Shown in pieces: positions 4,757 to 31,798 of a DNA stretch of 43,308 bases (positions are counted from its first letter, which is position 1; each line of letters begins with the position of its first letter). Origin of the DNA: Candidatus Aridivita willemsiae (GTDB taxonomy: Bacteria; Actinomycetota; CADDZG01; WHSQ01); the NCBI GenBank assembly GCA_013695835.1, contig JACCZU010000103.1, positions 1 through 43,308 on the forward strand, given 5' to 3'. The notes below the pieces were generated by a model. That model worked only from the letters and a program-made list of their open reading frames with translations, made no database searches and had not been told where the DNA came from. Position numbers and translations under genes: made by a program.

Positions 4757-7192
4757 CTAATTGGACGCTTGAGCCTCGTGCAAGGTTGCTTCGAGCTCCT
4801 CAGTCGTCATGAGAACGTCTCGGGGCTTGGAGCCCTGGGAGGGGCCGACAACGCCTCGCTGCTCGAGCAGGTCCATCAAACGGCCGGCGCGCGCGAACCC
4901 CACCTGCAACTTGCGTTGCAGCATCGATGTCGACCCCAGACCCGAGCGAACGACGAGCTCGAGCGCCTCCTGGAGAAGATCGTCCTCGCCGCCCCTGGCG
5001 TCCCCCGTCCCCAGAGACGCCTCTTCGGCCGTGACGCCCTCTGCATAGTCGGGATTGCCCTGTCTGCGGGCGTGGGCGACGACCGCAGCGACCTCTCTCT
5101 CCGTGACCCAGGCGCCCTGGAGCCGCACCGGTTTCGAGGAATTTGCGTGCAAGAACAACATGTCCCCTCGCCCGACCAGCTTGTCGGCACCACCCTGGTC
5201 GAGAATGACGCGGGAGTCTTGCTGTGAGGCCACGCTGAAGGCCAGCCTCGAAGGCACGTTTGCCTTGATGACCCCCGTCACGACGTTCACAGAAGGGCGC
5301 TGCGTCGCGATCACGAGGTGAATGCCAACCGCCCGCGCCATCTGCGCGATCCTGCAGATCGCGCCCTCGACATCCCTGGGCGCAACCATCATGAGATCCG
5401 ACAACTCGTCGACGACAACCAGGATGTAAGGATAAGGCTGGGGTTCCGGGTCGTCGTCCGAGCGCTTGCCAACCTCACCGCGCGCCAGCGCTTCGTTATA
5501 GAAGTCGAGGTTCCTTGCGCCGGAATGCGCAAGGGTCTCGTATCGCATCTCCATCTCCCGCACGACCCAGTTGAGAGCAGACGCCGCCTTCTTGGGCACC
5601 GTCACCACGGGTGAGAGCAGGTGAGGCACACCGGCAAAATGATTGAGCTCTACCCTCTTCGGGTCGATGAGGAGCAAGCGCACCTGATCGGGCCGCGCCT
5701 TGAGCAGGATCGAAGTGATCATCGAGTTGATGCACGACGACTTGCCGGAGTTGGTGGCGCCGGCGATCAGCAGATGGGGCATACCGGCGAGGTTGCCGAG
5801 GATCGGGTCGCCTGAGATGTCGGCCCCGAGGGCAACCGCAAGGGGGTGGTCGTCTCTGCGAGCGGCCTGGGAGCGCAGGACGTCTCCAAGCGTCACAACT
5901 TGCCGGCTCCGGTTGGGCACTTCAACGCCGATGGCCGAGCGGCCGGGTATGGGAGCGAGGAACCGCAGCTCGCCCGATGCGAGGGCGTACTTCATCTCGT
6001 TTGAAAGACTAAGGACGCTGTTTACCTTTACCCCTGCCCCGAGCTCGACCTCTAACCGCGTGACGGTCGGTCCTGTCGTATAACCGGTCACCGAGGCGTC
6101 GACCTTGAACTCCTCGAGTGTCGACTCGAGCACAGTGATCGTCTCCTGCACAGAACGGGCCGAGATCGCAAGCTCGTCGCTGAGGGCGAGCAGCTCGAGC
6201 GGAGGCAGGCGATACGACTTCGTGCTCCCCACCGGCATGGCGAGCTGGACGGCCTCGACGACCGGCTGCGCGGCCCGGCCGGCGGCCTCGGGGCCTTCGG
6301 CCTCGGGAAGCGAAGCACCTCGCCGACGGGAAGCAGGGTCACGTGAGCTTGATTCGCCGGGCGCTGTCGCCCCGGCCTCGAGGTCTCCCCCGGGGCCCAC
6401 AACGAGCGCTTTGCCGAACGCGTAGGCACCCGATGCAGCCGAGGTTGCCCAAGCCGCCACCCTGCTTACGGGTGTCTTGGTCACGACCATGATGCCGATG
6501 CCGAAGACGCCAAGCAGGACCGGCGGCACAACGAGGCTCCCCGCCCACCCGGCGAGGTCGGTCAGCGGCCTTGCCATGAGCGCCCCACCGACGCCGGCTA
6601 TGTTCTGCAGCTTCTCGAGCGGGGCCGAAACGGCTCGGTTCCCGTGCAACAGGTGCCAGGCGCCGGCGGCGGCAAGGAGACACAGGGCCACCCCGCAGGC
6701 TACCCTCCCGGCCTCGGGGCGAAGCCGTGGGATCACGATCGCCATCCCCGCCGCTACCGCAATCACGGGAAGGAGCAGCGCGAGGTCGCCGACGAACAGC
6801 CTCACCACGCCCTCGACAGCGCGGCCCAGGGGACCCCCGGGGCCGGAATAGGCGCTGAGCCCCAAGGTGGCGCCGGCGAAGGCCACGAGCCAGCCCCACG
6901 CTGCGGGAATGCCCGCAACGCGCACAACGCCGCGACCTGCAACGGCAAGCCCCCTCCGGGCGCGCGCCAACCAGCGCCTCCAGGGCGAGCGCCGGCGTCG
7001 GGTCGCTGGGCGCCGGCTTCTCTTTGCAGGGGGCCGCCTTCGGTTTGCGGTGGAGCGTCGTTTGCCGGCAGGTGGACGTTTGCGCGCCCCGCCCCCAGCA
7101 CGCTTGGGCGCCGGGGTGCGCGCCGTCTTTGCGGCCGCAGACGACCGCTTCTTCTTGGAGCTTGCCTTGTCCCGGCGGGTCGGAGTCGCCAC
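4757..7192 (-). CDS. ftsK: DNA translocase FtsK/SpoIIIE
   Basis: An 811-residue chromosome translocase that clears DNA from the division septum. Residues 1-75 are an extremely Lys/Arg/Ala-rich tail. Several hydrophobic spans follow between about 95 and 240. After an Ala/Glu linker the motor starts near 315. Walker A is GATNSGKSS (478-486), Walker B is ILVVVDELSD (590-599), and IATQRPS is present. The last 80 residues are the winged-helix gamma domain that reads KOPS-type DNA sites (LQRKLQVGFARAGRLMDLLE). The start is a GTG with AGGAGG four bases upstream. It follows rnj by 237 bases, which carry a hairpin. Confidence 0.95.
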   Translation of the reverse strand: MATPTRRDKASSKKKRSSAAAKTARTPAPKRAGGGARKRPPAGKRRSTANRRRPPAKRSRRPATRRRRSPWRRWLARARRGLAVAGRGVVRVAGIPAAWGWLVAFAGATLGLSAYSGPGGPLGRAVEGVVRLFVGDLALLLPVIAVAAGMAIVIPRLRPEAGRVACGVALCLLAAAGAWHLLHGNRAVSAPLEKLQNIAGVGGALMARPLTDLAGWAGSLVVPPVLLGVFGIGIMVVTKTPVSRVAAWATSAASGAYAFGKALVVGPGGDLEAGATAPGESSSRDPASRRRGASLPEAEGPEAAGRAAQPVVEAVQLAMPVGSTKSYRLPPLELLALSDELAISARSVQETITVLESTLEEFKVDASVTGYTTGPTVTRLEVELGAGVKVNSVLSLSNEMKYALASGELRFLAPIPGRSAIGVEVPNRSRQVVTLGDVLRSQAARRDDHPLAVALGADISGDPILGNLAGMPHLLIAGATNSGKSSCINSMITSILLKARPDQVRLLLIDPKRVELNHFAGVPHLLSPVVTVPKKAASALNWVVREMEMRYETLAHSGARNLDFYNEALARGEVGKRSDDDPEPQPYPYILVVVDELSDLMMVAPRDVEGAICRIAQMARAVGIHLVIATQRPSVNVVTGVIKANVPSRLAFSVASQQDSRVILDQGGADKLVGRGDMLFLHANSSKPVRLQGAWVTEREVAAVVAHARRQGNPDYAEGVTAEEASLGTGDARGGEDDLLQEALELVVRSGLGSTSMLQRKLQVGFARAGRLMDLLEQRGVVGPSQGSKPRDVLMTTEELEATLHEAQASN

Positions 7193-7253
7193 TTGACCTC
7201 CTACTCAAGATTTCCCACAACAGTAACAGGAGCACACAAGAGCAACACGGAGC

Positions 7254-7271
7254 CTCCCCGGGACCGGGGAG
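7254..7271 (-). terminator. GC-rich hairpin between rnj and ftsK, possible terminator
   Basis: CTCCCCGG and CCGGGGAG are perfect inverted copies separated by two bases; a 7-bp stem with a 4-base loop is the realistic fold. It lies about 160 bases past the rnj stop and about 60 bases before the ftsK start. No T run follows on the minus strand, so it would be a tail-less terminator or just a structured leader. I see nothing else in the 7193-7429 gap. Confidence 0.35.
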
Positions 7272-7429
7272 CTGGACCGTGACTCCAACCAGGGCAAGCC
7301 AGGCCACCGTTGGGGCAAGGCGGAGTGCCTAGCCGGCCCGGTCTGCTACCCGGGGCCGTTACTAGGGGGCGTGAATCTCGGTGTGCTGCAGATCCGTTGC
7401 ACAAGGCTGTGTCGGAGCGACTTGACCGG

Positions 7430-9091
7430 CTAGATCTCCATGACGATCGGCAGGATCATGGGGCGGCGCCTAGTGCGCTTCCACACGATCTCGCCGAGCG
7501 AGTTCCGGCACGCTTTCTTGATCGACGACCACTCCCTGACCTGGTCGTCTCCGAGCTCGTCGAGGGCGTCGGCGACCCTGTCCCCGGCCTCCTGCAGGAA
7601 CTCCTGCGACTCTCCGTGATAGACGAACCCCCGGCTGATGAGGTCGGGCCCCGCGAGGATGGCGCCGTCCTGGGAGTCGATCGTGACTACGCAGATGAGG
7701 ATGCCGTCACCCGCAAGCGTCTTTCGATCCCTGAGCACGACGGGGCCGACGTCGCCGACCCCGAGGCCGTCGACCAGGACCGTGCCCGCCCTCACCCTGC
7801 CGTCGGAGCGCACATGCCCTCCCTCGAGCACCAAGACGTCACCGTCTTCTATGACCGTGATGTCCGAGCGAGCGATACCCGAGCGTTCGGCTATGCGCGC
7901 GTGGTGAGCGAGGTGACGATATTCGCCGTGGACGGGAACAAAGTGTTTCGGCTTCACGAGCGTCACCATCTCGGCGAGCTCGTCGGCCGCCGCATGCCCA
8001 GAGACGTGAACATTGCTGTTCTCCGAGTGACACACCTCGGCGCCGGCCCTGTAGAGACCGTTGATGACGCGATGGACGGCGGCCTCGTTGCCGGGAATCG
8101 GGCTGGCGGAAAGCACCACCATGTCGCCGGGCTCGATGGAGATCGACCTGTGCTCGCCGGCCGCTATCAAGGTCAGCGCGGACAGCGGCTCGCCCTGGGA
8201 GCCGGTACAGATGACGGCCACCTCCTCTGGACGGTAGTTGGACAGCTCGCCGACGTCGATCAGCGTGTCGTCTGACACTTCGAGATAACCGAGCTCCCTC
8301 CCGACTTCGACGTTGGCGACCATCGAACGACCGATGAAGGCCACCTTGCGCCCCGTAGCCTCGGCAACCGTGCACACGCCCTGAATGCGGTGCAGGTTGG
8401 AGGCGAAGCACGCCACGATCACCCGGCGCTCCGAGGAGGAGAAGATCTCGCGCATGGCGACGCCGACCACTGCCTCGGAGGGAGTCCGTCCGGGCCGCTC
8501 TGCGTTGGTCGAGTCCGAGAGCATCAGATCCACCCCTTGGCGCCCAAGCTCGCCGAAAGACTCCACATAAGACGCCGGCGCGGCGTCTCCATCGGCCAGC
8601 TTGAAGTCCGATGTGTAGAGAATCCGCCCTTCGGGAGTGTCGATCACCACAGACACCGCATCGGGAATCGAATGCGACACCGCCAGGAGCCGGCACTTGA
8701 AAGGACCGATGGAGGCCTCCCCCGGCGCATTGATCTCGATGAAGCGAGCATCCACGTCAAATGAATCGAGCCTTCTCTTCGCCATACCAAGCGTGAGCGG
8801 CGTCCCGTAGACGGGGACGTCGACCTCGCGTAAGAACCACGACAGGGCCCCGACATGGTCCTCGTGGCCGTGGGTCAGCAGCACACCGTCGCAGCGGTCG
8901 GCGTTGGAGGACACATAGGAGAAGTCGGGGAGCACAAGATCGACGCCGAGCATCTCCTCGTTGGGAAAGGAAAGGCCGGCGTCGACGACCAGGATGCGGC
9001 CGTCCATCTCGACGGTCATCATGTTGCGACCGATCTCCCCGAGCCCCCCGAGGAAGATGATCCGTACGCCGGAGGGATTCCCTTGGCTCAC
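7430..9091 (-). CDS. rnj: Ribonuclease J (metallo-beta-lactamase/beta-CASP)
   Basis: A 553-residue RNase J, an endo- and 5'-3' exoribonuclease for mRNA turnover and rRNA maturation. The zinc motif HGHEDH is at residues 74-79 after the conserved LGGLGEIGRN. Later motifs are SHSIPDA, the aspartate in YTSDFK, the beta-CASP segment FASNLHRIQ, CTGSQGEP and the C-terminal PVHGEYRH. The frame is open far upstream, but I start at the GTG at 9089-9091: it overlaps the dapA stop as GTGA, and family homology begins a few residues later. The dapA-rnj pair is typical of actinobacteria. Confidence 0.94.
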   Translation of the reverse strand: MSQGNPSGVRIIFLGGLGEIGRNMMTVEMDGRILVVDAGLSFPNEEMLGVDLVLPDFSYVSSNADRCDGVLLTHGHEDHVGALSWFLREVDVPVYGTPLTLGMAKRRLDSFDVDARFIEINAPGEASIGPFKCRLLAVSHSIPDAVSVVIDTPEGRILYTSDFKLADGDAAPASYVESFGELGRQGVDLMLSDSTNAERPGRTPSEAVVGVAMREIFSSSERRVIVACFASNLHRIQGVCTVAEATGRKVAFIGRSMVANVEVGRELGYLEVSDDTLIDVGELSNYRPEEVAVICTGSQGEPLSALTLIAAGEHRSISIEPGDMVVLSASPIPGNEAAVHRVINGLYRAGAEVCHSENSNVHVSGHAAADELAEMVTLVKPKHFVPVHGEYRHLAHHARIAERSGIARSDITVIEDGDVLVLEGGHVRSDGRVRAGTVLVDGLGVGDVGPVVLRDRKTLAGDGILICVVTIDSQDGAILAGPDLISRGFVYHGESQEFLQEAGDRVADALDELGDDQVREWSSIKKACRNSLGEIVWKRTRRRPMILPIVMEI

Positions 9092-15529: not shown

Positions 15530-16462
15530 CTAGCAGGTCAACGACCGTGTGGCCTCGACATCCTTTTTGATCTGGATGATTAGCTCTTCGGCCGAGGCGA
15601 ATCTTGTCTCGTCCCTCAACCGGGTAATCAGCTCGATCCGCAGCGGCCGGCTGTAGAGGTCTCCGGTCCAATCCAGGAGATGCGCCTCAAGCCGCGGCCT
15701 CGCGGCCTTGTCGTGAGTAAAAGTCGGATTCACCCCCACGTTGACTGCCGCCGGGTAGCGGCCCTCCTTCGTCTGCGCACAGCCCCCATAGACGCCGTTG
15801 GGCACTCTTGCCATGCCCTCCCCAAGGGGGAGATTGGCGGTCGGGTAGCCCAGGGCAGCCCCGCGCGCGTCCCCGCGCACGACTTCCGCCTCGACCTCGA
15901 ACGGCCTACCGAGCAGATCGGCGGCGAGCTCGAGGTCGCCGGCGGCGACGGCACGGCGCACTCTGGTGCTCGATACCGGCTCGCCTCCTGCTTCGAAAAG
16001 GGGGGCCGCCTCCGCGGCGAAGCCGAGCCAACGGCCTAGCTGCTGCAATGTGGCGATGTCGCCTGCAGCCTTGTGACCAAAGCGGAACCCTGATCCGACG
16101 AACACCGACCGGGCGCCGAGGCCGCCGGCAAGCACGTCCTCGACGAAACGCCGTGGCGGCCATTTCGTAAAGGCGTCGTCAAACTCGAGCACCGCAACGA
16201 TATCCAGCCCCGTGGCGGCAAGCAGCTCCATTTTCCTTTCGAGGGTAGTCAGAAGCGGCGGGGTCTTGGACGGGGCAAGGGTCTCGGTGGGATGGCGATC
16301 CCAGGTAACACACACGGACCGGCGGGCATGCTCGTTCGCATCATCGACGGCGCGCCCTATGAGCGCATGATGCCCTCTGTGCACCCCGTCGAACGTGCCG
16401 ATGACGACCGAGCTTCCCCCCGGCGGCGGGGCCAGAGCGTCGAGCCCTTCGATCACCCTCAT
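15530..16462 (-). CDS. ribF: Bifunctional riboflavin kinase/FAD synthetase
   Basis: A 310-residue enzyme that turns riboflavin into FMN and then FAD. The N-terminal nucleotidyltransferase half has GTFDGVHRGHH at 22-32 and the VGSGFRFGHKAAGD segment. SSTRVRRAVAAGD is the end of that domain. The C-terminal kinase half has GYPTANLPLG and PNGVYGG, with NVGVNPTF near residue 240. The start ATG overlaps the truB stop by four bases (ATGA), so the two are coupled. The truB-ribF-rpsO order is widely conserved. Confidence 0.95.
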   Translation of the reverse strand: MRVIEGLDALAPPPGGSSVVIGTFDGVHRGHHALIGRAVDDANEHARRSVCVTWDRHPTETLAPSKTPPLLTTLERKMELLAATGLDIVAVLEFDDAFTKWPPRRFVEDVLAGGLGARSVFVGSGFRFGHKAAGDIATLQQLGRWLGFAAEAAPLFEAGGEPVSSTRVRRAVAAGDLELAADLLGRPFEVEAEVVRGDARGAALGYPTANLPLGEGMARVPNGVYGGCAQTKEGRYPAAVNVGVNPTFTHDKAARPRLEAHLLDWTGDLYSRPLRIELITRLRDETRFASAEELIIQIKKDVEATRSLTC

Positions 16463-17388
16463 GCCGAAGAACCGCCCGTTGGTGCACCGTCCCGCCGAGG
16501 CGGCACGGGTGTGTCGTCGTCCCGCCGAGGCGGCACGATGCGGTCGGCCAGGAGGAGGTCGCCTTTACGCCTGTACACCCCGAGAAGCCGGCCCCCGATG
16601 GTCATCGCGACAAGCCGGCCCTCAGCGGGTGAACTCCCCACCTCCCCGACGGGCAGCGGCCGTCCGTGAGTCACCGTACGAGCGGTTGACTCGTCGACCT
16701 CGATGCCCGGAAGCACCCTTACGACATCGCCAAGCGGGCGCAGGCTTGCCGGCTCGACGGAGCTCGGGGGCACGGCCTCAGCCTCGGTGAACCCTCCCGC
16801 CTCGGTGCGCCGCAGCCACGCGCAGTGCGCCCCGCAGCCAAGCGCGGCACCGAGGTCGCTCACCAGCGTGCGCACGTAGGTTCCCGCCGAGCAGTGAACG
16901 GAGATCGTCGCTTGGTGACCGCGATCATCGGCTTCGACGACGTCCAGGGAGTAAACGGAGACCGATCTCGCCGGCCTCTCGACCTCCTCGCCGCGCCGCG
17001 CCTTCTTGTAAAGGCGCTCACCCCCGACCTTGACGGCGGAGACCATCGGCGGCACCTGCATGATGTCGCCGGTGAGGCTGCGCACCGCGGCATCAAGCTC
17101 CGCCCTAGTGAAGGCCACCGGGCGGCGCTGCAAGATGGCGCCCGATGCATCTCCGGTAGAAGTGGTGACGCCGAAGACGGCGGTTGCAAGGTAGCGCTTG
17201 GGAGCGGACTGCGCATAGGACAAGAATCTGGTCGCTGCCCCTACGCCGAGAAGGAGCACACCGGTCGCGTCGGGATCGAGTGTGCCTGCATGGCCCACCT
17301 TTCTGGTGCCGAGACGCCGTCTGACCTCGTCGACGACATCGTGCGAGGTGACACCGGCAGGCTTGTCTGCGACGACCACGCCGTCCAA
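16459..17388 (-). CDS. truB: tRNA pseudouridine(55) synthase
   Basis: A 309-residue enzyme that makes pseudouridine 55 in the T loop of tRNAs. The catalytic aspartate is Asp38 in GHAGTLDPDATGVLL. Other motifs are DKPAGVTSHDVV (8-19), KRYLA and SAGTYVRTLVSDLG (near 188-201). The PUA-like C-terminal domain runs to about residue 285. The last roughly 25 residues are a tail with two copies of PPRRD, made by a 30-base DNA repeat also found in nrnA (see 16489-16538). The start is 44 bases after the nrnA stop. Confidence 0.95.
   Translation of the reverse strand: MDGVVVADKPAGVTSHDVVDEVRRRLGTRKVGHAGTLDPDATGVLLLGVGAATRFLSYAQSAPKRYLATAVFGVTTSTGDASGAILQRRPVAFTRAELDAAVRSLTGDIMQVPPMVSAVKVGGERLYKKARRGEEVERPARSVSVYSLDVVEADDRGHQATISVHCSAGTYVRTLVSDLGAALGCGAHCAWLRRTEAGGFTEAEAVPPSSVEPASLRPLGDVVRVLPGIEVDESTARTVTHGRPLPVGEVGSSPAEGRLVAMTIGGRLLGVYRRKGDLLLADRIVPPRRDDDTPVPPRRDGAPTGGSSA
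16489..16538 (-). repeat. Two copies of a palindromic 30-base-period repeat in the truB 3' end
   Basis: The plus-strand 20-mer CGTCCCGCCGAGGCGGCACG occurs at 16489-16508 and 16519-16538, exactly 30 bases apart. Its core CCGCCGAGGCGG can fold on itself. Sixteen bases (GTCCCGCCGAGGCGGC) are identical to the repeat in nrnA, but here the frame reads PPRRD rather than RLGGT. Confidence 0.85.
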
Positions 17389-17432
17389 GCCGGAGGGCTC
17401 GCCGCGCCGTGAACGGTCGCGCTTGAGTGCGA

Positions 17433-18587
17433 TCAGGACCGCCGGGAGGTTGCTTCCGAAGCCCCAGCCTCGAGCGCCGTCGTCTTCCGGTCGAGTCGCC
17501 GGCCCCCTTGTTCCGAGGTCCCGCCGAGGCGGCCCCCTTGTTCCGAGGTCCCGCCGAGGCGGCCCCCTTTTTCCGAGGTCCCGCCGAGGCGGCCCCCTTT
17601 TTCCGAGGTCCCGCCGAGGCGGCCCCTTAACGCCGTACGGATGTCGTATACGGCCTCGTCCATGTCTTCGGCGGTGAAACCCGCCGCGAGCTCGTGACCC
17701 CCTCCGCCCTTGTCACGCGCTATCGCTGCGACGCTCACGGGGCCCTTCGACCGCATGCTTGCGCGGTAGGTGCCGTCGGGCTGCTCCTTGAACATCGCCG
17801 CAACGTCGGCTGCGCGCGTGGATCGCACGAGATCTATCAGCGTCTCGGTCGCGTCGAGGTCGACGCCGGTTGCCTCGAGATCCTCCAGCGTTATCCACGA
17901 GTAAACGAACCGTTCGGAGGGAAAGAGAGTGGCCCGCCCGAGCATGCGGCCCATCAGCTTGAGATAGCCGAAGGGCACGGACTCCCATATCTCCGAGGCT
18001 ATTGCAGGCGCAGGAACACCAAGGGCGAGAAGGTCCGCCCCCAAGCGCAGGGCTTCTGGCGAAGCGCTCGCGTACTGGAAACGTCCCGTATCGGTCACAA
18101 GTCCCGTGTAGAGGCAGGTTGCGATGTCACGATCGAGGTCGATGCCCACATCCTGGAGCAAGCGGACGACAAGCTCGGCCGTGGACGAGGCGCCGGGCAC
18201 CACCACATTGAACGTCCCAAAGTTGTCGTTGCCAGGGTGGTGGTCGATGTTGATGAGGCACTCACTTGCACGCGCTTGGTCCTCGAGACTGCCGAGCCGG
18301 TCTCCCGCCCCGCAGTCAAGGGCAAGCCACACCGGGGCCCGGGGGACCTCAGACGCTTGTACCAAAGTCTCCGCTCCCGGCAGAAATGCGTAGCTATCAG
18401 GAAGGCCGACGTCGTCTGAACCCCAGCTTGGCCAGGTCCTGGCACCGCTCTTGGCAAGCGCAAGCGAAGCCCCAAGAAGCGAGCCAAGGGCATCGCCATC
18501 GGGGTTCACATGGCAGACGATGGCAACTTCCGCAGGATCTCGGAGAACGGCAACGACGTCGTCCCAATCCTCAGCGTTGTAGCGCAT
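17433..18587 (-). CDS. nrnA: DHH/DHHA1 phosphoesterase, NrnA-like (oligoribonuclease/pAp phosphatase)
   Basis: A 384-residue DHH-family phosphoesterase that clears nano-RNA and dephosphorylates pAp. Metal-binding motifs are HVNPDGDALGS (His26, Asp30, Asp32), Asp91 in LALDCGAGD, and DHH at 115-117. The DHHA1 domain ends with GGGGHELAAGF. After it comes a tail of four 10-residue repeats (GRLGGTSEKG or GRLGGTSEQG) and about 20 more residues, unknown in the family and encoded by a 30-base tandem repeat. The ATG overlaps the rbfA stop by one base (TAATG). The nusA-infB-rbfA-nrnA-truB order is conserved. Confidence 0.93.
   Translation of the reverse strand: MRYNAEDWDDVVAVLRDPAEVAIVCHVNPDGDALGSLLGASLALAKSGARTWPSWGSDDVGLPDSYAFLPGAETLVQASEVPRAPVWLALDCGAGDRLGSLEDQARASECLINIDHHPGNDNFGTFNVVVPGASSTAELVVRLLQDVGIDLDRDIATCLYTGLVTDTGRFQYASASPEALRLGADLLALGVPAPAIASEIWESVPFGYLKLMGRMLGRATLFPSERFVYSWITLEDLEATGVDLDATETLIDLVRSTRAADVAAMFKEQPDGTYRASMRSKGPVSVAAIARDKGGGGHELAAGFTAEDMDEAVYDIRTALRGRLGGTSEKGGRLGGTSEKGGRLGGTSEQGGRLGGTSEQGGRRLDRKTTALEAGASEATSRRS
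17501..17636 (-). repeat. 30-bp tandem repeat in the nrnA 3' end (four full copies plus a part)
   Basis: The unit on the plus strand runs CCGCCGAGGCGGCCCCCTTG then TTCCGAGGTC. Copies begin at 17521, 17551, 17581 and 17611 (the last one cut at about 17630), with a partial copy before 17521. Copies differ only by G/T in the CTTGTTCC/CTTTTTCC segment, which changes Gln to Lys in the protein. Near-perfect identity points to recent expansion. Confidence 0.92.
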
Positions 18588-21600: not shown

Positions 21601-22806
21601 CTACCCTCCCACGCCCGGCGTCGCCGAGGCCTCGGTTGGGGCGGTGGGGCGCTCGGCCTCCGGCCCTTGGGCGTCGGGTTCGGAGGCGTCGGGTTCGGAG
21701 GCGTCGGGTTCGGAGGCGTCGGGTTCGGAGGTGTCGGGTTCGGAGGTGTCGGGTTGAGGGGCGTCGGGTTCGGGGGCGTCGGCCGCAGCGGCAGCAGCAG
21801 CCTCCTGGGCCTCCCTGCGAACCTGCGTCTCGGACTTTATGTCGACCCTCAAGCCCGTGAGCCTCGCCGACAGCCTTGCGTTTTGCCCCTCCTTGCCGAT
21901 GGCAAGAGAGAGCTGATAGTCGGGCACGATCACGAGCGCCGTCCCCCCCTCGGCCACGACCTTCACCTGCTTGACTTTGGCAGGAGACAGGGCATTTGCG
22001 ACGAACTCCTCGACTCCCTCAGTCCACTTGATGATGTCGATCTTTTCGCCCCTCAGCTCGTTCATCACCATGCGCACGCGCGAGCCCTTGGCGCCGACAC
22101 AGGCCCCCACCGGGTCCACGTTTCTGTCGTTCGAGGCGACTGCGATCTTCGTCCTGTGCCCCGGCTCGCGTGCGACCGCCTTGATCTCGACGATCGAATC
22201 AAGGATCTCGGGGACCTCGAGCTCGAACAGGCGCTTTATCAGGCCAGGATGAGTTCGAGACACGATGATCTGGGGGCCCCTGATGGACTTCCTGACCTCG
22301 ACGATGTAGGCCTTGAGGCGAGCCCCGTGCTCATAGCGCTCGTGGGGGATCTGCTCGGACGGTGGCATCAGCGCTTCGGTCTTGCCGAGATCCAGGATCG
22401 TGTAGCGATGATCATGCTGCTGAACGATGCCGGTGACGATGTCGCCCTCGCGCCCTGCATACTCACCGAAGGTGATATCGCGCTCTGCCTCCCTAAGTCT
22501 TTGGAGGATGACCTGCTTCGCCGTCTGCGCAGCTATTCGCCCGAAATCGGCGGGCGTGTCCACCCACTCCTTCGTGACGCTCGTCTCCTCGGTGTCGTAA
22601 TCGAACTCGAGCTCCTGCGCGTAGAGGGTGACCTCGCCGGTCTCTCTTGCCAAGGTCGCGCGCGCACCCCTAGTCGGATCCTCCTGCAGATTCAAGACGC
22701 GCAGATAGGCCTGCGCCAGAGCACCCTCGATCGCTCCGACTACCGTGTCGAAGGACACGCCTCTCTCGCGCTCGAGCTGGCGCAGGGACTCCATGTCAAT
22801 GTTCAT
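21601..22806 (-). CDS. nusA: Transcription termination/antitermination protein NusA
   Basis: A 401-residue RNA polymerase partner that modulates pausing, termination and antitermination. An N-terminal RNAP-binding domain (1-125), an S1 domain near 130-200 (REGDIVTGIVQQHDHRYTILDLG) and two KH domains near 200-340 (GACVGAKGSRVRMVMNELRGE; LAIGKEGQNARLSARL) are all present. The last 60 residues are a low-complexity acidic tail built of EPDAS/EPDTS units from a 15-base repeat. rimP precedes it by 26 bases. Confidence 0.95.
   Translation of the reverse strand: MNIDMESLRQLERERGVSFDTVVGAIEGALAQAYLRVLNLQEDPTRGARATLARETGEVTLYAQELEFDYDTEETSVTKEWVDTPADFGRIAAQTAKQVILQRLREAERDITFGEYAGREGDIVTGIVQQHDHRYTILDLGKTEALMPPSEQIPHERYEHGARLKAYIVEVRKSIRGPQIIVSRTHPGLIKRLFELEVPEILDSIVEIKAVAREPGHRTKIAVASNDRNVDPVGACVGAKGSRVRMVMNELRGEKIDIIKWTEGVEEFVANALSPAKVKQVKVVAEGGTALVIVPDYQLSLAIGKEGQNARLSARLTGLRVDIKSETQVRREAQEAAAAAAADAPEPDAPQPDTSEPDTSEPDASEPDASEPDASEPDAQGPEAERPTAPTEASATPGVGG
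21669..21782 (-). repeat. 15-bp tandem repeat coding the NusA acidic tail
   Basis: The plus-strand unit GGCGTCGGGTTCGGA recurs about seven times with few changes. On the coding strand it yields repeated SEPDA or SEPDT pentapeptides. The first copies are nearly identical and the outer ones diverged (QP, AP variants), typical of slippage-driven growth of a disordered tail. Confidence 0.85.
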
Positions 22807-29747: not shown

Positions 29748-30722
29748 CTATGAACCTTGCGCCGCCTCGATGGGCGACCCCTCGTTTGATTCCGCGGGGG
29801 CCTCGGTGCGCCCGCCTTCTTCCTGAGGCTCGGCCTCCGGCTCGGACGCGGCGCCGGCATCGGTCACGACCGGCTCGGGCTGAGCCGGGGCCGCAGCCCC
29901 CTGCACGACCTCTTTCTCCGCCTCTTCCTCGGCTTCTAGCTGAAGCTCCCACTCGGCCTTTGGTTCTGCCGCAGCTCCGGGCAAGACCCCCGGCGGCGTC
30001 GTCGACGCCGGCTCCCCCGCATCTTCGCCGGTCTGTGGCCGCATCGACTTGCCTTCAATAACTGCATCCGCGATGACCCGGGTGAGCAACGCGCCCGACC
30101 GAATGGCGTCATCGTTTCCCGGGATCGCGTAGTCGACGTCATCCGGATCACAGTTGGTATCGAGGATCGCGACGATTGGGATCCCGAGTTTCTTGGCCTC
30201 GCGAACTGCGATCTCTTCCTTCTTGGTGTCCAGGACATAGATCGCATCCGGCGGCTTATCCATGTCCGTCAGCCCTCCGAGGTTGCGGCTGAGCTTCTCG
30301 TGCTCGCGGCTGAGAGCCAGCGCCTCTTTCTTGGGCAGCGCATCAAGGGACCCGGTGGCCACCATGTCCTCGAGCTCCCGCATTCTCTTTATGCGCTCGT
30401 GAATCGTGCGGAAATTCGTTAGCATGCCCCCGAGCCAGCGGAAGTTCACGAACGGCATCCCGCATCGCTTCGCCTGGTCCTCGACGGCGTCTTGCACCTG
30501 GCGCTTGGTGGCGACGAACAGCACGGTGCCGCCGCCGGCGACGAGGTCACGAATGAACTTGTAGGACCGTTCGATCCCACCCATTGTCTGTTGGAGGTCG
30601 AGGATGTAGATGCCGTTTCGCTCGGTGAAGATGAAACGCTTCATCTTGGGGTTCCATCGCCGAGTCTGATGGCCGAAATGCACCCCGGCCTCGAGCAGCT
30701 GCCGCATCGTTACGACGGGCAT
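29748..30722 (-). CDS. rpsB: 30S ribosomal protein S2 (uS2) with an acidic C-terminal extension
   Basis: A 324-residue S2. Family signatures are [22 protein letters not shown] (6-27), IDLQQT-like [16 protein letters not shown] and [17 protein letters not shown]. The ribosomal domain ends near residue 240. The remaining 80 or so residues are Glu/Ala/Pro-rich and disordered. I start at the ATG at 30720-30722, with GGAGGAGG 12 bases upstream; the longer frame has no homology. A perfect 16-base palindrome lies just before the ribosome-binding site. Confidence 0.95.
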
Positions 30723-30765: not shown

Positions 30766-30884
30766 TGTCCTCCGCCCGCAGGCCCGGGGCCTAAAAAGAT
30801 ACCGGGACCGAAGATCCCCGCACGTCGCGACGCGCCGGGAAAAGCGAGCGTGTGAATTTTGTGAAGCGAGCTAGAGGCTAACAC

Positions 30885-30958
30885 GAGGCGGCCCCGCCTG
30901 GCCCTGCGGTCCCCGAGGCGGGCCCCGGTTGTTCTTGCGGTCCCCGAGGCGGGCCCCG
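30885..30958. repeat. GC-rich 32-base-period repeats between whiG and rpsB
   Basis: TGCGGTCCCCGAGGCGGGCC followed by CC occurs at 30905-30926 and 30937-30958, 32 bases apart. A diverged copy (CGAGGCGGCCCCGCCT) is at 30885-30900. The cores resemble the repeats in nrnA and truB. The array starts seven bases past the whiG stop, so it would lie in the 3' end of the whiG transcript. The rest of 30723-30964 shows no gene. Confidence 0.75.
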
Positions 30959-30964
30959 CGCAGC

Positions 30965-31798
30965 TCAGTCGGAGTGGGTAACCTCGCTGATCATGCCCCG
31001 GAGCGCCAGCACCGCCTTGGTGTGCATCTGGCAGATACGGGACTCGGTCACCCCCAACACCTTGCCGATCTCGGCAAGCGTCAGCGCCTCGTAGTAATAG
31101 AGCGTCACCACCCATTTCTCGCGCTCGGGCAAGCGGTTGATCGCCCCCGAGAGGATCCCTTTCATCTCTTCTGACTCAAACGCCTCTATGGGACCGACCA
31201 TCTTCGTGTCCTCGAGGGTCTCGACCAGTGAGAGCTTGTCGCCCCTCTCTCCCTCAACCGACATGAGCTCGTCAAGGGCGACCAGTGAGACGCTCGAGAG
31301 CTGGCTGTAGGTGTGGTTGAGGTCGTCGAGCGATACGCCCATCTCGACGGCGAGCTCAGGGTCGGACGGCGGCCGCTTGAGCTTGTTCTCGAGGCTTGTG
31401 TAGGCCTTCTCCACCTCTCTGGCCTTGAACCTCACGGAACGCGGCACCCAGTCGATGGCCCTTAGCTCGTCGATGATGGACCCTCGGATGCGGCTGATCG
31501 CATAGGTCTCGAACTTGATGCCTCGCGACAGCTCGTACTTCTCGATGGCGTCGATGAGCCCAAAGATCCCGTATGAGATGAGGTCCGCCTGCTCGATGTT
31601 GGCCGGGAGGCCGGCGGCAACGCGGGCTGCCACGTACTTTACAAGCGGGGCGTAGTTGAGGATCAGCAGATCTCTGTCCTCGGGGCCCGGGTGCGACTTG
31701 TAGCGTTCCCAGGCTTCCTGAACGCTGTCGAGTCCGGCCTTGCCCGGGGACGAGCCGCTCACCGGACGCGCCCTAGGCTCTCGGGTGGCTTTGCTCAT
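30965..31798 (-). CDS. whiG: RNA polymerase sigma factor, WhiG/FliA family
   Basis: A 277-residue group 3 sigma-28-type factor. Region 2 has [31 protein letters not shown] and [18 protein letters not shown]. Region 3 has [14 protein letters not shown]. Region 4 has [44 protein letters not shown]. FliA drives flagellar genes and WhiG sporulation genes; no flagellar gene is in the window, so the regulon is open. Placement next to xerC and rpsB is the actinobacterial whiG position. It overlaps the end of xerC by 26 bases. Confidence 0.92.

Follow-up and report, generated by a model that had tools for sequence, protein, structure and literature searches.

A REP-like tagged palindromic repeat within and between genes in a family of uncultivated Actinomycetota

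Two kinds of small palindromic repeat come closest to the element described here, which behaves like both and has the sequence of neither. GTAG REPs are palindromes of 20 to 40 bp, which occur in tens of copies, carry a tag beside the hairpin and go together with the transposase RAYT/TnpAREP; passages of the same paper report REPs within the genes for tRNA pseudouridine synthase B, DNA polymerase I and DnaE2 of other bacteria (PMC3733652). The CGTC REPs are assigned no dedicated transposase in these passages, and CGTC families have A-T pairs at the base of the stem and a CCA tail (PMC3733652). A second paper ascribes imperfect, bulged palindromes to one REP group (PMC8266576). The phyla listed for REPs in the passages of the first paper do not include Actinobacteria, and the string 'Actinobacter' has no occurrence in its text (PMC3733652); our literature search, which covered open-licence papers, returned no report of such repeats in Actinomycetota. 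The second kind are the Rickettsia palindromic elements (RPE), which are 105 to 146 bp long and form in-frame fusions, and the same passages describe NEMIS, RUP and ERIC, which are MITE-like small mobile repeats, as non-autonomous, structured and sometimes fused to ORFs (PMC2229807).

Arrays in truB, in nrnA and at a third site

The window, i.e. the whole stretch of 43,308 nucleotides that was analysed, contains six exact copies of the 16-mer GTCCCGCCGAGGCGGC. Two of them start at positions 16489 and 16519 in the C-terminus of truB and four at 17518, 17548, 17578 and 17608 in the C-terminus of nrnA, with a spacing of 30 bases, exactly as a sequence-only reading of this DNA had claimed. With up to two mismatches allowed, 0.33 matches are expected in the window by chance, and none of 100 shuffles gave more than two. 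In truB (16459..17388, minus strand), two units at 16477..16538 (minus strand), whose cores at 16489-16504 and 16519-16534 lie 30 bp apart, make up a C-terminal tail of around 23 residues at the 3' end of the gene, and the sense strand of the element, on which the hairpin precedes the tag, is the coding strand. The nrnA-type gene (17433..18587, minus strand) ends in a tail of around 60 residues, in which four units and a partial unit with a period of 30 (17500..17627, minus strand) encode (R)LGGTSE(K/Q)GG repeats. The translated tails contain RLGGTSEKGGRLGGTSEKGG in nrnA and VPPRRDDDTPVPPRRD in truB, and the core is read as RLGGT in the former and PPRRD in the latter, which are the two frames named by the earlier reading. 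Directly downstream of truB lies a gene that is presumably of the ribF type (15530..16462, minus strand); as it starts within the last codons of truB, the truB array is also the upstream region of the ribF-type gene.

The earlier reading was correct about these two arrays but overlooked a third, diverged one, which is located in an intergenic region (30883..30958, minus strand), has a period of 31, which is not a multiple of three, and reaches weak covariance-model scores of 24 and 20 bits. It is flanked by a gene at 30965-31762, which we take to encode a WhiG/FliA-type sigma factor, and a gene at 29748-30722, which looks like rpsB. The 16-mer itself is real, but the full unit, of which it is just the core, is longer and includes a conserved flank. 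In our view, with a probability of about 0.8, this unit is a REP-like repeat, an imperfect palindrome with a tag, that inserts and multiplies as DNA. A CRISPR array was considered and rejected, since adjacent units mostly share the spacer and the period is 28-37 bp throughout. Near the 3' end of a nusA-type gene (21670-21782), there is a 15-bp repeat, GGCGTCGGGTTCGGA, with 7.5 copies; it is a different repeat and was rejected as a copy of the element.

A hairpin with variable stems and a constant tag

The sense strand of a unit forms an imperfect hairpin with a CUCG loop, which is followed by the conserved tag AGAACAA, and has the general form GC-N4/5-CGY-CTCG-RCG-N4/5-GC-AGAACAA. Units are around 30-39 bp long (22-39 bp for the units in the REP size test). 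They read about TTTGTTCTGCGGTCCCGCCGAG(G/C)CGGCCCCG in G000, the genome of the window, and TTGTTCTGCGTCCCGCCGAGGCGGCCCGCTTCTG in the sister genus g9, represented by G008 and G014. The outer stem pairs change jointly between these two genera, and entire stems of G014 differ yet still pair (GCGATTCGT/ACGAATCGC, GCCGTTCGT/ACGAACGGC, GCGGATCGT/ACGATCCGC and GCCGGTCGT/ACGACCGGC). The covariation score of alignment A1 is 0.286 compared to 0.069 in shuffles; for alignment A2, which consists of 26 sister-genus sequences, it is 0.260 compared to 0.120, a value reached by 0 of 500 shuffles, and both sides have changed at six of the nine stem pairs. The tag AGAACA and a flanking A are kept around these variable stems, with the upstream A present in 62 of 65. 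The tag continues into a purine-rich stretch, and the position that follows is a G in 54 of 67 copies, in every context; the element may therefore bring its own Shine-Dalgarno-like sequence. A mid-stem GG/GA mismatch is kept in many copies, and the two pairs concerned are unpaired in 19 and 20 of the 26 sister-genus sequences. The conservation of a mismatch would be hard to explain if the site were recognised as an ordinary double strand, and it suggests the recognition of a folded single strand.

With the GTAG REPs, the element shares its small size, its dispersal and its many copies, the conserved tag at the hairpin, conserved mismatches in some stems and, in the sister genus, a mostly intergenic location with some copies in genes. 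However, its foot reads GC-AGAACAA (TTGTTCT-GC on the other strand) and contains neither GTAG nor GTGG, and its arrays are head-to-tail tandems, whereas REPs form head-to-head dimers. Unlike for the GTAG REPs, a Y1 transposase does not accompany it: the RAYT/IS200 type (PF01797) was found in 0 of the 16 genomes of the family and in 5 of 14 control genomes. The sister-genus antisense strand, which reads GCGTC-stem-CGAG loop-stem-CC, resembles the CGTC REPs, but CGTC is not kept in G000, where GGTC prevails, or in G010, and the element has neither A-T pairs at the stem foot nor a CCA tail. As with the RPE, palindromic DNA sits in frame in conserved genes (truB, nrnA, hisF, dnaE2 and a nuoF-type gene), where it is read as peptide, and is also found between genes. 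The unit of around 30-39 bp is, however, much shorter than an RPE, unrelated in sequence and hosted by actinobacteria, and the RPE passages mention no tandem arrays of 30-33 bp (PMC2229807). The analogy to Rickettsia drawn by the earlier reading thus holds for the behaviour and not for membership of the same family. NEMIS, RUP and ERIC are likewise structured, non-autonomous and sometimes fused to ORFs, but measure around 100-200 bp and have terminal inverted repeats, while the element is one hairpin with a tag.

Genome-wide, G000 (2.5 Mb in 302 contigs) contains 17 exact copies of the 16-mer and none of the reversed control pattern, so that its frequency, a point raised by the earlier reading, is above that of the control; with up to two mismatches, 95 matches, which include the sister variant GTCCCGCCGAGCCGGC, stand against 22 for the reversed control. 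Covariance model R1 has at least 90 matches in G000, and model matches number at least 40 in G008 and at least 63 in G014; these copy numbers are lower bounds, since the scans scored a limited number of candidates at the first-look stage, which was 150 out of about 6,600-8,400 per genome for R1. Model R2, which was built from the sister genus g9 (G008 and G014) only, has at E<=0.05 at least 41 matches in G000, at least 19 in G002 and at least two each in G010, G012 and G015, and a single weak match in six of 45 genomes outside the family. At E<=0.001, among the candidates scored, at least six of the 16 genomes in the family have a match, and none of 280 from elsewhere in the phylum has one. 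Nine (E<=0.05) or ten (E<=0.001) of the 16 family genomes were without an R2 match among the candidates scored, of which there were 118 per genome in the E<=0.05 scan and 24 in the scan of 280 phylum genomes, and absence from these is no proof of absence.

Units of G002, G012 and G015 match those of G000 over the hairpin and GCAGAA (GCGGGGCCGGCTCGGCGGGACCGCAGAA) and are found at other loci. Two further genomes carry cousin repeats: GCGATCC-GCTGGA-GGATCGC with GTGAATAAA in G011 (24 copies) and GCGATCGT-CTCG-ACGATCGC with GCAGAACAA in G010 (at least seven copies). At the G010 loci L244-L249, the palindrome GATCGTCTCGACGATCGCG occurs in dispersed single copies with GCAGAACAA-like tags behind it, mostly between genes and on the sense strand. 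The element belongs to a superfamily in one family of uncultivated Actinomycetota. G030, G032 and G057 have one exact 16-mer each, with no tag beside it, and we regard these as chance matches; a search of viral contigs with three element patterns gave no match.

This distribution bears on two simpler accounts. An assembly artefact or the contamination of one metagenome-derived genome might be suspected from the 302 contigs of G000 and from an array at the end of one of them (C63), but the element is also present in independent genomes of other genera (G002, G008, G012, G014 and G015) and at orthologous places in G008 and G014, which makes this hardly conceivable. Low-complexity slippage, by which similar GC-rich 30-mers would have grown independently in each gene in the manner of microsatellites, would agree with tandem, GC-rich arrays that often end in partial units. 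It is nevertheless very improbable: the same sequence of 16 to 28 bases is met again in other genera and at loci that have nothing in common, with no hit for the reversed control, the stems covary, and copies in the sister genus are mostly single.

Insertion into genes and use of reading frames

The sequence-only reading had called for a comparison with truB and nrnA homologues without the tails, and the tails begin where nearly all homologues of the family stop. In 14 of 15 genomes of the same family, TruB ends 1-4 residues past query residue 285-287, at which the window tail starts; the match to the fifteenth (L188) breaks off early. NrnA ends 0-6 residues past residue 316-331 in 13 of 15, the exceptions being L185 with 17 and L193 with 44 more residues. 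The NrnA tail of L193, from G011, is that genome's own palindrome, with a period of 30/33. At this locus, the palindrome GCGATCC-GCTSGA-GGATCGC forms in-frame tails of both nrnA and an rbfA-type gene (1337-1436 and 2428-2497); these tails occupy the same operon place as in the window, in another genus.

Other copies lie within genes. In an alignment to HisF-LUCA (4evz), residues 1-132 and 169-286 of the G000 HisF are matched and it has an excess of 33 residues, while the seven family homologues displayed, out of 12, have at most 13 extra residues at the insertion place (G011). In DnaE2, one particular loop contains a unit in both G008 and G014 and, in G002, four units in tandem (GAGSAGPQTNG), so that this loop is occupied in three genomes in two different frames; it is filled in none of eight others, and in G012 and G003 it is extended by other sequence. 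The dnaE2 gene of G002 (L387) has, besides the four tandem units in one loop, a unit in another loop and, at a further place, a weak one. In a gene that is of the nuoF type by inspection, two species of genus g13 have three and two in-frame units, respectively. Units are also present in polA and in undecaprenyl-diphosphatase-type, hybrid kinase and acyl-CoA dehydrogenase-type genes, which were named by inspection; the names of PolA and HisF are supported by database matches as well. It is striking that truB, polA and dnaE2 also host repeats in unrelated bacteria.

Within genes, units are translated in each of the six possible frames, three of them sense and three antisense. The period of in-gene arrays of at least two units is divisible by three in 18 of 18 cases, compared to 10 of 21 arrays that are not wholly inside a gene (Fisher p=2.3e-4); gene or intergenic status rests here on a simple gene caller made for this analysis, and L058, scored as intergenic, looks like an N-terminal extension. 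Of 28 units, 25 contain no stop in any of the six frames, compared to a fraction of 0.57 of shuffles, and the same is true for 23 of 26 units, compared to 0.40; as the units are related to each other, this excess is weak evidence. A unit can therefore usually be read as different peptides in different genes.

It is conceivable that the peptide is what is selected, i.e. that tails such as RLGGTAEQ or GAGSAGPQ spread as protein by gene fusion or domain shuffling. One sense frame, the GAGSAGPQ-like one, is commoner than others in G000 (11 of 21 sense in-gene arrays), and some peptides may thus be better tolerated. However, the use of all six frames, the homologues without tails and the many arrays outside of genes (19 of 45 in G000 and 53 of 68 in G008 and G014) leave this idea very little credence. 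The claim of the earlier reading that the sequence is conserved or spread as nucleic acid and not as peptide is borne out by the six frames, the compensated stems and the intergenic copies.

Copies between genes and a possible mechanism

In total, 123 arrays were mapped. R1 matches below around 26 bits, which include L087-L091, the second match in L071 and the third array of the window (30883-30958), stand outside this set, as does the R2 match in L097, and two nrnA units and one L057 unit were entered from an earlier R1 search or from the sequence. After removal of duplicates, 89 arrays with clear gene context comprise 69 in sense and 20 in antisense orientation (p=1.8e-7), with L281, a duplicate of L280, and L328 excluded from the orientation counts. 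The bias persists between genes: 31 sense and 13 antisense copies lie between co-directional genes (p=0.0096), or 30 and 13 after duplicate removal (p=0.014). Among intergenic sense copies of G008 and G014, the tag ends 6-14 nt from the start codon in 11 of 23 (expected 3.8, P=0.0001), a figure that may be sharpened by the gene caller, which favours starts with a Shine-Dalgarno motif; among antisense copies of these genomes, the tag end coincides with the upstream stop codon in five of eight (expected 1.4, P=0.005). In 26 of 28 units, and likewise in 24 of 26, the sense strand gives the more stable RNA hairpin. Several copies adjoin tRNA genes, in both orientations (L280, with the tRNA identified by Rfam, and L098, L286, L333 and L347, with tRNAs recognised by eye).

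GC-rich hairpins close to gene ends are reminiscent of intrinsic terminators or attenuators. This assignment is highly unlikely, given that the sense hairpin is followed not by a T run but by AGAACARR and then G, and that many copies are positioned within genes or just upstream of starts.

Six element sites were compared between G008 and G014, a sample that is biased as loci were chosen for carrying elements, and five of the six have the element in both genomes. The hairpin is wholly conserved within diverged spacers at two of these sites; at a third, the stem has been replaced with compensation, and at a fourth, two units correspond to one unit and a second one that appears decayed by eye. 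The dnaE2 site also has the element in both. At the sixth (L324 1850-2150 compared with L341 673-960), G014 has a unit upstream of the gene, and the corresponding gap in G008 is occupied by a small hairpin that is unrelated, with the structure judged by eye. None of the six is a clean empty site at the DNA level. Some orthologous copies are perfectly identical although their spacers have diverged, for which selection for a function is no worse an explanation than selfish DNA.

These data raise the question of whether the element is primarily a cis-acting RNA motif or the site of an RNA-binding protein, which is kept by selection in 5' untranslated and intercistronic regions, with in-gene copies as a spill-over of tandem expansion. 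The sense bias between genes, the position of the tag near start codons, the stability of the sense hairpin and the preservation or compensated replacement of orthologous stems all speak in its favour. On the other hand, copies are located deep within polA, hisF, dnaE2 and acyl-CoA dehydrogenase-type genes, 20 arrays are antisense, the downstream genes have no obvious common function, R2 has no match among the candidates scored in nine or ten of the 16 family genomes, and Rfam at the gathering score found two tRNAs and nothing else in 11 loci. We therefore consider an RNA motif somewhat doubtful as the main explanation and rate a role at the mRNA level higher as a secondary effect. Sense bias, near-start position, the stabler sense hairpin and conserved orthologous copies together suggest such an added role between genes.

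According to our preferred reading, a REP-like repeat that inserts and multiplies as DNA, single units would spread in the form of DNA and come to lie at the borders of genes and in loops that tolerate them. The dispersal itself is seen across loci and genomes; it would probably proceed via a folded single strand, as for REPs, a step that is inferred because the known REP transposase is absent. Units would then multiply locally by slippage or recombination to give head-to-tail arrays with a period of 28-37 bp, which is suggested by the near-identity of neighbouring units and by copy numbers that differ between species. Within genes, the survivors would be those insertions and expansions that keep the frame at termini or in surface loops, as the pattern of in-gene arrays indicates. 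Intergenic sense copies would fold as hairpins in the mRNA, often just upstream of starts, and may have been co-opted there.

It is tempting to speculate that the element represents a third superfamily of tagged palindromic repeats, with an AGAACAA tag, a CUCG loop and a frequent GG/GA mismatch, in which the stem is genus-specific and the tag constant. Such a repeat might be moved by a non-Y1 mobiliser and might combine a hairpin with a ribosome-binding site in one module, serving as a leader upstream of starts and as a six-frame peptide inside genes; we put this proposal forward tentatively.

Taken together, these findings add a group of Actinomycetota, for which our search found no previous report, to the hosts of REP-like repeats and of palindromic elements inserted in frame, and the absence of the Y1 transposase points to a mobiliser of another kind. 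The same short DNA enters conserved genes in six frames, with clear marks of frame selection. With a DnaE2 loop that is filled in three genomes of two genera and a nuoF-type gene in which the number of units differs, the idea that selfish DNA supplies new protein sequence becomes directly testable.
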